The translations under genes and the position numbers were made by a program. Of a stretch of DNA of 64,000 nt, positions 47,936 through 55,533 are shown piece by piece; within the stretch, counting starts at the first letter, position 1, and each line of letters starts with the position of its first letter. This stretch comes from Alistipes sp. (GTDB lineage: Bacteria; Bacteroidota; Bacteroidia; Bacteroidales; Rikenellaceae). The notes beneath the pieces are model-generated. The model was not told the origin of the DNA and ran no database searches. It worked only from the letters and a program-made list of their open reading frames with translations. The stretch is from assembly GCA_029068505.1 (NCBI GenBank), contig JAIECN010000077.1, forward strand, positions 1 to 64,000, given 5' to 3'.

Positions 47936-48340
47936 TCATGAATTCTTGTACAGCTCCCACCCTTTTTCTACTTCGCGCCGGTCGGCCGCCGCACCGTTTT
48001 CCACGCGGGAAATGGCCGCCGCGATAGGGATCATCGTCTTGCGGTCGAGGGTGTCGACGGGTTCGTGGGGCGCGATGCCCGTGTCGGCCGCCACAGCCCG
48101 GATGTAGGCGTCGGTGCGGTTTTCCGTGGGCGGCGCCCAGCGCGCGATCATCTCCGCGACGGTGCGCAGACCGTGGCGGGTGCGGTAGGTGTGCAGCAGC
48201 ACGAAGATCGCCCGGTAGCCCCAGGCCAGCGATTCGAATTGCTTGAATGCCGGGTCGCGCGAGGGGTGCACCTCGCCTTTGTAGCGGACTTTCGAGCGGC
48301 GGATGTTGCCGGGATTGCAGTTTTTTAAGCCTCGGGACAT
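47936..48340 (-). CDS. Phage structural protein P5-like, probable virion-associated lytic protein
   Basis: SRGLKNCNPGNIRRS...FKQFESLAWGYRAIFVLLHTYRTRHGLRTVAEMIARWAPPTENRTDAYI. Confidence 0.75.
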   Translation of the reverse strand: MSRGLKNCNPGNIRRSKVRYKGEVHPSRDPAFKQFESLAWGYRAIFVLLHTYRTRHGLRTVAEMIARWAPPTENRTDAYIRAVAADTGIAPHEPVDTLDRKTMIPIAAAISRVENGAAADRREVEKGWELYKNS

Positions 48341-48399
48341 CTTAAGAATGTGTTTTTGCAAAATTCGTAAAACCAGAAATGGCAAGCGCCGGCACACCC

Positions 48400-52192: not shown

Positions 52193-54568
52193 TTATTCGT
52201 CGTCCACCGTATGGACGAACGTGCAGCGGGCCGTGCCTTCGGCCGGATCGTAGTCGGCGACCGCATCGAGCGTCGCCCGCACCGTGTCGCCGCCCGTGTC
52301 GAGCAGGAACACCGAGCGGATGTCCGGAGCGCCCGTGCCCGGGGCCAGCAGAGCGGCGAATTCGTGGGGCGCCAGCCGCAGCGAAAGCGTGATCCGTTCG
52401 CGCGTCGCGTCTTGGGCGACCTGCCGGTCGTAGCGGCCGTGCAGTCCCCGGGCGCCATCGCGATCTTCGAAGCAGAGCGTGCAGGGCGCCGCCGTCGCAT
52501 CGCCCGCGAAATGGAACGCCGCCAACGGATATTCCGCCGCATGGGAAGGATAGCCCCAGCGTTCGCCTTCGGGCAGCGGGTGCATGCCCATGAAGCATAC
52601 GATGCGGGGCGAGAAGTTGATGCCGTCGGCATCGACCGCATCGCGGTCGCCCACTTGGAGCAGCTGCGCCGAGGGGGCGTTGCGGTAGTGGCCCGTGCTG
52701 TTGAGCGTGGGGCGGAACAGGGGGTTGCGCAGGGTCTCGTCGCCCATCTTCGCCCCGTACGATTCGGTGCGGGCGCTCCAGCTGCCCAGACGGGTGTCGT
52801 GCGCCGCCTCGAACCGCGTCACCGCGCCGTCGCCCTCCTGGTAGCACCACGTGCGCAGTTCGTGGATCTGCGGAGCGATCTCTTCCAGCACCACCGGTTT
52901 CGAAAAGTCGCTCTTCGCACGCCAGTCCGCCTCAACGCCCGCGCCGTAGAAGTCGTCGGCCGGCTCGATGAAGACCCGGCGGGTCGCCTCCTCGGTGTAG
53001 AACCGCAGGTTGAACAGATGGGCCAATGCTTCGAGCAGCTCCGACTGCCGGATGCGGTGCTGGGCCACGTCGGCGAACCGGAGCATCGAACCGTAGCCCG
53101 GCCCGGCCTGGAAACGGGGCTGCAACGCGCATTCCTTGTGCAGAGTGAGCGCCATGCCGGCTTCGGCGCCGAAGAAGTGGATGTCGTAGAAATGCTTCGG
53201 CGACGCGGGCGATACCGTTTCTGCCGCCGTGCGCACGCGCAGCTCGACGGTCGTCTGCCCTGTTTCGCCGATGTAGCCGTCGTAGAGCGCCCAGTCGCCC
53301 GCATAGGGCACCCATGCCCCGTCGCGCTGGATCCAGAGCACCGGGTCGGCCGGATTTCCCGATGCCGGAGTCGTCACGGTCGTCGAACGCACGTCGAAGA
53401 ACGTCCACTCGGCACCCGGCATCCCATGAAGGGTGCAATTGAGCCGGTAGCGGCTGCCTGCCGCATGATCGAACACCACGATGCGGTAGGTGTAGTTGGC
53501 GCGGATCGCTTCGCGGCGGTCTTTGTAGCGGTTGGCCAGCGCGAAGCGCAGCTCCGACCCCGGGCCTAAATAGATCGAATCGAATCCGCGCAGCCGCGTG
53601 CGAGTCAGAATGCGATGGTCGGTCGTATACTTCAGATAGTACTCGAATCCCACGTTCGTCTCCGTCGCCGGCGTAAAGCGCAGCATGCCGTCGGCCATCG
53701 TCAGCGAGTTGCCGTTATTGTAGAGTCCGTCGATCGGCTCGCCGTCGGCATCCGGAGTCTGGGGCGTGGCCGTGTCGACGATGTTGCCCACCGTGTTGAG
53801 CACGGCCTTGGGATCGGCATAGACCCAGCCGGCGTTGCTCGCCGTGGCCGTTACCGGAGCCAGGCGGCGGGCACGGAACCCCATGCGGGCCTCCGCAGCC
53901 GTGGTGTCGCGGGTGGAGTAGGCGCCGCTCATGTAAAGCGAGCGGAAAAACGGCGACGCGAAAAATTCGCTCACGATCCGGTACTCCGCCTCCTTGAAAA
54001 TCTGTTCGACGAGCGTCGCCACATGCAGGAAGGGGTGGTAGTCGTCGACCGTCAGCAGCCGTTCGGCCGTCAGCAGGTCTTGCGGATTGCTTTGCTGCGG
54101 GTATTCGTCGCGGTGAACGGGGAAGAACTTCACGGGCGACGAATCCGTCCAGCTTTGCAGGATCGTCGTGGGATGCAAGGGCGCCTCGTAGTCGATCTCC
54201 AGCGCGTTGAACATCCGGCGGGCCGCCCGTTCGGCCCAGCCGGCGCCTCCTTCGCGTATCTCCACCACGAAGCCCTCGCCCGACGCCGAGAGCAGGCGTG
54301 CCGTGCCCTCCAGCAGCACGCTCTCTTCGGCCGAGAGCACCGCGGTGCGAAGCGCCGCATTGAAGCGGTTGCCCGGATGCGGATCGCAGGGATCGCCCAA
54401 CAAAGCGCGGTTGCGCAGCGTAGGGGGCAGTTCGAGCCGCAGCGAGCGCCCCTCGCGGCAGGCTTCCGCATCGGAAGTCTTGGCCGCCGAATAACCCGGC
54501 ACGCGGCACGCCGTGTCGCTCAAGTCGCAGCCTTGGCCGTCGATGAACAGTTGCAAAGCCGGTTTCAT
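52193..54568 (-). CDS. Large phage structural/tail-like protein (791 aa)
   Basis: MKPALQLFIDGQGCDLSDT start; no confident domain; shares operon with phage genes and overlaps the upstream gene by 4 nt. Confidence 0.5.
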   Translation of the reverse strand: MKPALQLFIDGQGCDLSDTACRVPGYSAAKTSDAEACREGRSLRLELPPTLRNRALLGDPCDPHPGNRFNAALRTAVLSAEESVLLEGTARLLSASGEGFVVEIREGGAGWAERAARRMFNALEIDYEAPLHPTTILQSWTDSSPVKFFPVHRDEYPQQSNPQDLLTAERLLTVDDYHPFLHVATLVEQIFKEAEYRIVSEFFASPFFRSLYMSGAYSTRDTTAAEARMGFRARRLAPVTATASNAGWVYADPKAVLNTVGNIVDTATPQTPDADGEPIDGLYNNGNSLTMADGMLRFTPATETNVGFEYYLKYTTDHRILTRTRLRGFDSIYLGPGSELRFALANRYKDRREAIRANYTYRIVVFDHAAGSRYRLNCTLHGMPGAEWTFFDVRSTTVTTPASGNPADPVLWIQRDGAWVPYAGDWALYDGYIGETGQTTVELRVRTAAETVSPASPKHFYDIHFFGAEAGMALTLHKECALQPRFQAGPGYGSMLRFADVAQHRIRQSELLEALAHLFNLRFYTEEATRRVFIEPADDFYGAGVEADWRAKSDFSKPVVLEEIAPQIHELRTWCYQEGDGAVTRFEAAHDTRLGSWSARTESYGAKMGDETLRNPLFRPTLNSTGHYRNAPSAQLLQVGDRDAVDADGINFSPRIVCFMGMHPLPEGERWGYPSHAAEYPLAAFHFAGDATAAPCTLCFEDRDGARGLHGRYDRQVAQDATRERITLSLRLAPHEFAALLAPGTGAPDIRSVFLLDTGGDTVRATLDAVADYDPAEGTARCTFVHTVDDE

Positions 54569-55533
54569 GAGCGGTCGGTTGTTCGGCAAAGCCGGATTTC
54601 GATTTCCAGGCAGCTCAATGTCCCGTGGCGGTGGACGACGGCCCGGTCGCTCAACACGTCGACCTTGCGGTAGCCCGAGGAATCGACGATCCACACCTCG
54701 GGTGCGACCAGAATTTCGGCCAAGGCTTCCAGCATCGTGCGCGTTTCGTAGGCCGAGCGGAGCCGCAGGCGCTGTTCCTGGTCGGCGCTGACTACTTCGG
54801 GGCCTTCGAAGCTGCGGATGCGGGTTTTCTGCGTCTCCACCGAAGCCGTCGGTTCGATCGGGAAAGTGTAGTGTTCGATCGATCCGGCGCGGGTGTGCCA
54901 GGCAATGCGGCGGGCGCCCTGCACGGCGGGCACGACGGTGTATTCCACCTTGCCGCAGGTGTCGAATTCGACAGTGATCCGTTCTGCGCCGGGGAAGTCC
55001 GAGGTGTCGAGCCTGAAGAGCTGCAACCCCGAACTGGCGGGGGCGTAGGTGCGGACAACGGTGCCCGCAGGCCCTTGCGCCGTGACGGTAGTCTTGGGCG
55101 GCAGGTCGAAAAGCAGCGTCGCTTCGTCCCACTCGCCAGGGGCGATCAGCCGTTCGGTCGGCATGGTCGTGAGCAGCGACAACATGGCCGGCGTATCGGC
55201 TCCGGCAAAGTAGACGCGAGTGGGCGAACGGGTCTTCTGGCTCGGATCGTCGGTGAGCGCGGCCGTGACCGTCACCGGGATTTTACGGTCGACGGCCGAC
55301 ACATAACCCGTAGGCGCGGGCTGCGGTGCGAAGCGGATGGTGCGGCGGATGATGGGCGACACATCGAACGCCGCTTCGGTGATGTTCACGAAACGTCTGG
55401 TTCCCAACAGCTCGCCCGTGAGCGTGTGCCTCAGGGCGATGTCGATCGTTTGCGCCGGGTCGCTCGCCACGCGGCATTCGGCCCTGCGCCAAGTGGGCGA
55501 ATAGTCGGGAGGAGTAGTTTTGAACGAAAGCAT
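54565..55533 (-). CDS. Phage-associated hypothetical protein (322 aa)
   Basis: First gene of the phage-derived operon; intact ORF starting MLSFKTTPPDYSPTWR. Confidence 0.5.
   Translation of the reverse strand: MLSFKTTPPDYSPTWRRAECRVASDPAQTIDIALRHTLTGELLGTRRFVNITEAAFDVSPIIRRTIRFAPQPAPTGYVSAVDRKIPVTVTAALTDDPSQKTRSPTRVYFAGADTPAMLSLLTTMPTERLIAPGEWDEATLLFDLPPKTTVTAQGPAGTVVRTYAPASSGLQLFRLDTSDFPGAERITVEFDTCGKVEYTVVPAVQGARRIAWHTRAGSIEHYTFPIEPTASVETQKTRIRSFEGPEVVSADQEQRLRLRSAYETRTMLEALAEILVAPEVWIVDSSGYRKVDVLSDRAVVHRHGTLSCLEIEIRLCRTTDRS

Follow-up and report, generated by a model that had tools for sequence, protein, structure and literature searches.

What does a bacterial chromosome hold when it keeps the portal, the capsid and the head maturation protease of a tailed phage in one compact operon, with no terminase, integrase, tape measure or holin in the interval? 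The question is raised by positions 47936-55533 of the window analysed here, a stretch of 64,000 nucleotides from an Alistipes sp. contig (JAIECN010000077.1), for which the initial annotation had proposed either a domesticated capsid/portal module (a GTA-like particle, an encapsulin-like compartment or a satellite using a helper phage) or a prophage remnant. The best explanation, to which we give roughly two chances in three, is an anciently and independently domesticated, vertically inherited, two-locus GTA-like tailed-phage particle system of Rikenellaceae.

Gene content of the operon

The features of the locus, in order of transcription, are as follows:

47936-55533, minus strand: seven-gene operon between rplY/pth and corA, transcribed in the order G, F, E, D, C, B, A
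55782..55813, minus strand: conserved promoter motif TTGACAAAGGGGGTA-N-TATATTTG, ~280 bp upstream of G
54565..55533, minus strand: G, 322 aa, virion protein of unknown role, whose homologue precedes F in a relative phage
52193..54568, minus strand: F, 791 aa, tail-tip/baseplate-hub-like protein (AlphaFold2 and PDB matches)
51242..52141, minus strand: E, 299 aa, ClpP-type prohead (head maturation) protease (Pfam and PHROG)
50189..51166, minus strand: D, 325 aa, HK97-fold major capsid protein (AlphaFold2 and Foldseek)
48888..50114, minus strand: C, 408 aa, portal protein (PF04860, TIGR01540, phrog_11226)
48400..48888, minus strand: B, 162 aa, DUF6712 protein (PF20459), connector-like by its position after the portal
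47936..48340, minus strand: A, 134 aa, phage-type lysozyme (phrog_873 endolysin)

All seven frames are intact and co-directional, and they are as tightly packed as first described, with overlaps of 4 nt (G/F) and 1 nt (portal/DUF6712) and gaps of 51-75 nt. Most of the roles read from the sequence alone were borne out by profile searches. The portal matches PF04860 (1.5e-11), TIGR01540 (6e-18) and phrog_11226 (2.9e-20), and the ClpP-like protease matches Pfam CLP_protease (2.5e-24) and phrog_94, a head maturation protease (2.7e-36), with Ser95 and His120 at least 97% conserved across 61 loci. The connector-like protein is the DUF6712 protein (PF20459, 2.4e-9), found at the same position in the relative phage, and the protein described as P5-like is the lysozyme (phrog_873, 4.2e-45).

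The capsid protein D has a weak profile match (4.9e-8), and its AlphaFold2 model (pLDDT 83) has the HK97 fold, with Foldseek matches to phage HK97-fold capsids (best E 4e-10), the RcGTA capsid among them (3.2e-8), and also to encapsulins, phage capsids being matched at least equally well. Two large proteins had been called structural-like. For F this was supported, its model (pLDDT 91) being hub-like and matching the MuSo2 43-kDa tail protein, Mu gp44, the lambda tail tip and the monocin tip in the PDB, with low global TM-scores and a probability of up to 0.99, and strongly matching predicted proteins of uncultured tailed phages. G has no family match in profile searches and no named relative, and the gene order around it is identical in relatives and in the relative phage. 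PHROG scans with alignments of G and of two genes of the fuller operon of other genera (p181 and a terminator-like gene) returned no named function, and PDB profile searches with alignments of these three, of the capsid and of F, plus the portal sequence, returned nothing useful.

The promoter motif occurs in 44/55 loci and in none of the shuffles, and a whole-genome scan for the pattern matched in 3/5 genomes, each time solely at this operon. GC content at third positions is similar in the module genes (0.80-0.88) and their host neighbours (0.83-0.89).

Conservation across Rikenellaceae

Is the operon an accident of one strain? A portal was found in 182/200 Rikenellaceae genomes, which rules out chance, and in 105 of the 109 of good quality, nearly always in single copy. 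Its close relatives belong to Alistipes and Rikenellaceae, no match above 38% identity was found outside the family (396 genomes of the class, 296 of the order), and the operon genes are essentially confined to Rikenellaceae. The gene order is fixed in Alistipes, with corA adjoining in most loci where the contig extends far enough, while in other genera the operon is larger and lies in several cases near rplY-pth-S4. The fuller order runs promoter, p289, terminator-like gene, G, F, p83, ClpP, capsid, p181, portal, DUF6712, holin, lysozyme. The terminator-like and p181 genes are gone from much of Alistipes, and the window's clade, without the terminator-like gene, p83, p181 and the holin, has the most compact version seen; in six genomes of this clade, a search for the holin elsewhere found none. 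In-frame stops in portals of other genera lie almost all at the natural C-terminal end. One portal (G026, L287) has a single internal TGA where its relatives have Trp, which may reflect decay, recoding or an error in the sequence, and two good-quality Alistipes-genus genomes (L189 from G046, and G115) have the terminase locus described below and no portal match, possibly through recent loss of the operon.

Pieces of the operon have also been filed as phage, in GenBank ('Bacteriophage sp.') and in IMG/VR (L122, MT838805.1; L123, MT838736.1; L124-L130), so that virus collections contain Rikenellaceae chromosome. Two GenBank 'Bacteriophage sp.' scaffolds with such pieces come from Mexican faecal samples; a Mexican faecal virome study worked with DNase-treated particles (PMC8361208), but it may or may not be their source and is therefore not counted as evidence here.

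A terminase at a second locus

The initial annotation described the module as being without terminase, which holds for the locus and fails for the genome, where a matching large terminase (TerL) lies at a second conserved locus (locus 2, the operon being locus 1), flanked by host genes:

contig C1 (L160) 2221-2892, divergent: CI/LexA-like S24 repressor with HTH and S24 peptidase domains
contig C1 (L160) 3037-3330: 97-aa small protein, between repressor and terminase
contig C1 (L160) 3536-5041: large terminase TerL, in the same genome as the window

With a phage TerL as query, a close match was found at a separate locus in 23/23 chosen Rikenellaceae genomes, and with the TerL of this genome in 182/200. 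In the 28 terminase loci compared, the arrangement is the same, with the repressor in 28/28 and the small protein in 27/28. Among 25 sequences (including phage), the Walker A and B motifs and the candidate nuclease aspartates and glutamate of TerL are invariant, as are, in 25 repressors, the Ser-Lys dyad and the Ala-Gly site. An operator-like palindrome, TTCAA-N-TTGAA, lies between repressor and terminase in 25/26 genomes (4.1 expected). When sought upstream of locus 1, it was scattered in 12/57 loci at varying positions, with none in the window, and co-regulation of the two loci is therefore unproven. The same intergenic region (e.g. L160:2893-3036) holds a second palindrome, CTTTG-N-CAAAG, in 26/26 genomes (0.8 expected). 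The 97-aa protein evolves fast, belongs to no known family and has named relatives in Alistipes only; it could be a replacement for the small terminase. In three other-genus loci (L162, L166, L168), a uracil-DNA glycosylase-like gene lies directly beside the repressor.

Neither an integrase nor replication genes were found at locus 1 or locus 2. In the single-contig genome G087, the portal lies at 1.26 Mb and the terminase at 3.27 Mb, about 1.4 Mb or more apart; in G037 and G057 the spacing is only ~11 and ~18 kb, in keeping with one cluster that was split later. Portal and TerL are jointly absent from 12 genomes, including all sampled members of two genera, and singly from 6 and 6 (Fisher p 5e-11, a value inflated by incomplete assemblies and shared ancestry; good-quality genomes alone give p 0.006). 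Among the good-quality genomes, two have TerL and no portal, and two have the portal and no TerL.

Selection and vertical descent

The operon genes are under purifying selection and track the host phylogeny. In the pairs tested, dN/dS is 0.01-0.40 for every gene of both loci (0.24-0.40 for G), and it is also low between close relatives inside the window's clade, where the remaining genes are all open. Protein distances of the portal correlate with those of corA (r 0.85, n=45), as do those of TerL (r 0.78), and TerL and portal correlate with each other (r 0.88, n=21; partial r 0.53 given corA). In the TerL tree, the Rikenellaceae sequences group in a single clade (support 0.98) that excludes the phage TerLs. 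The family clade of the portal tree (0.92) also includes IMG/VR contigs, mostly carrying this operon alone, and L133, which retains a gene of phage type and is possibly a true phage, so that the portal tree alone is less clean.

Family-wide single copy, synteny, purifying selection and host co-divergence strongly uphold the proposal of a domesticated GTA-like capsid/portal module, though not of a terminase-free one. A recent prophage remnant is excluded. Of the findings that the initial annotation named as refuting its reading, namely terminase, integrase and tail genes just outside the locus, presence in a single strain, relaxed selection and folds other than those expected, none was made.

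A related temperate phage

Where could the two loci come from? The 43-kb temperate phage IMGVR_UViG_3300029702_000249 (L132, L139, L140) has a portal 65% and a TerL about 59% identical, and it carries the same genes in one genome. It also has a small terminase, a large terminase (phrog_38) and a tape-measure-like gene, and further a holin, an endolysin-like and an integrase-like gene, these three being named from their sequence and position. By this match, the window operon is identified as the portion of such a phage that encodes the head and the tail tip. G-F and ClpP-capsid-portal-DUF6712 are ordered alike in both, whereas the phage is a single unit of 43 kb that also includes a small terminase, a tape measure, a holin and replication-type and integrase-like genes. 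Same-type phages remain in circulation.

With the phage's genes as queries, the small terminase was undetected in 19/20 genomes and the tape measure in 21/23, the matches being confined to apparent prophages. One genome, G087 (L161, L307), has two further terminase matches, with tape-measure-like and small-terminase matches, elsewhere on its chromosome, apparently in separate prophages. No tape measure or tail tube was recognised in the system itself; tape measures evolve fast, which makes the absence of this gene less certain.

A model of a two-locus particle

One ancestral temperate phage would have been captured before most of Rikenellaceae diversified, would have lost its integrase, replication genes, small terminase and tape measure, and would have been split into two chromosomal loci. 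Locus 1 would make a prohead of portal and HK97 capsid, matured by the ClpP-type protease, and add the connector-like protein, a hub-like tip (F, G) and lysozyme, while locus 2 would make the CI/LexA-like S24 repressor, the 97-aa protein and the large terminase. Under stress or DNA damage, RecA would trigger self-cleavage of the repressor and free the promoter of the small protein and terminase; TerL, working without a sequence-specific small terminase, would then load host DNA into locus-1 proheads, and the filled particles would exit by lysis and bring host DNA to kin. Particle assembly, random packaging of host DNA, induction, release and delivery to other cells are what we infer from the genes.

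The definition of GTAs (PMC9662315) asks for tailed-phage-like particles formed by tailed-phage-derived proteins, encapsidation of mostly random pieces of host DNA, complete endogenisation of the genome, frequently over several host loci, with no or only partial packaging of that genome owing to head size, vertical inheritance with co-diversification, and delivery of the packaged DNA to other cells. The Rikenellaceae system appears to fit this definition wherever genomes can answer. Tailed-phage-derived proteins, seen here as genes, are present by profile, TerL, capsid and F structure matches; the two loci are chromosomal and flanked by host genes; the distances to corA, the fixed synteny and the TerL family clade speak for vertical inheritance and co-diversification. 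An intact TerL and the loss of the phage small terminase look compatible with random packaging, and a single packaged fragment as long as a phage genome could not contain both of the unlinked loci. An intact temperate prophage would call for an integrase, replication genes and a full morphogenesis unit, which surround neither locus.

The particle of the window's clade may be near-tailless, because the holin and several small structural-position genes were lost there, and the missing tape measure together with further small-gene losses in Alistipes makes a delivery-competent tail uncertain. Such a particle would be either an unusual GTA or another use of a DNA-filled capsid. The holin not detected in this clade and the repressor-terminase palindrome not found upstream of the window's operon also weigh against the model. 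A bolder version of the GTA-like reading, which we hold tentatively and with some doubt, would make this an independent Bacteroidota GTA lineage that belongs to the core of an abundant gut family. Its terminase would be controlled by a CI/LexA-like repressor at a second locus, and its tail would have been dismantled by degrees until, in Alistipes, DNA is delivered by a particle that has no tail, or a stub of one, and only a hub-like tip.

Alternative explanations

Could the particle have a use apart from gene transfer? A capsid that contains DNA and has no tail or only a stub, a particle that kills, or interference with the assembly of related phages would suit the same selection and vertical descent, as these fit any useful role, and would suit the family-wide lack of a detected tape measure, the loss of the terminator-like and p181 genes in much of Alistipes and the continued presence of same-type phages. 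The terminase, catalytically intact by its motifs and co-inherited with the portal, points instead to DNA packaging, and the operon holds no colicin-like or immunity gene; we regard a non-transfer role as rather unlikely.

An ancient prophage in slow decay, from which nothing is made in Alistipes any more, would account for the genes lost step by step on the way to the window's clade (p289, terminator-like gene, p83, p181, holin) and for the good-quality genomes with one locus only. It is very improbable against open genes with low dN/dS, invariant catalytic residues, a conserved promoter and an operon kept in nearly all good-quality genomes. Even less credit can be given to a capsid-forming satellite mobilised by a helper phage, which would explain a compact structural operon without replication genes, given a fixed chromosomal position, the lack of an integrase at either locus, the absence of the phage small terminase from 19/20 genomes, host co-divergence and a terminase of its own beside portal and prohead protease. 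An encapsulin-like compartment, suggested by the fold of D, is equally hard to credit for a vertically inherited operon with no cargo enzyme and with a portal, prohead protease, hub-like protein and co-inherited terminase that an encapsulin does not need.

Comparison with known systems

Few lineages have yielded experimentally grounded GTAs, whose resemblance to dead prophages hides how common they really are (PMC11841831). In the open-access literature, no account of a GTA in Rikenellaceae or Alistipes was found, and an earlier report elsewhere is possible. In recent work on protected faecal DNA, GTAs are named for Ruminococcaceae and Oscillospiraceae, and Rikenellaceae appear solely as abundant in total DNA (PMC12946183); that protected bacterial DNA in this small study was not dominated by Rikenellaceae despite this abundance counts against the GTA reading (PMC12946183). 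If the GTA-like reading is true, it would add one more, separate domestication event, this one in a dominant gut phylum and open to comparison with a closely related phage, and it would offer a route of gene exchange between gut commensals that can be tested. A 'remnant' that lacks a terminase can be one half of a split system.

Encapsulins share the HK97 shell fold and differ in lacking portal, protease and terminase. The FpGTA candidate of Faecalibacterium (PMC12946183) is likewise a compact gut-bacterial operon with portal and capsid genes, read as a GTA, but it belongs to another phylum, has its terminase within the operon and is supported by protected-DNA reads; that paper does not describe the Rikenellaceae system. 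With RcGTA (Rhodogtaviriformidae), it shares head genes and a terminase of tailed-phage origin, vertical inheritance, purifying selection, dispersal over several loci and the lack of a specific DNA-binding small terminase among the genes found. It differs from RcGTA in its separate origin in another phylum, in a terminase locus apart from the head genes, in having no recognised tape measure or tail tube, in its ClpP-type protease, and in the CI/LexA-like S24 repressor that stands beside its terminase.
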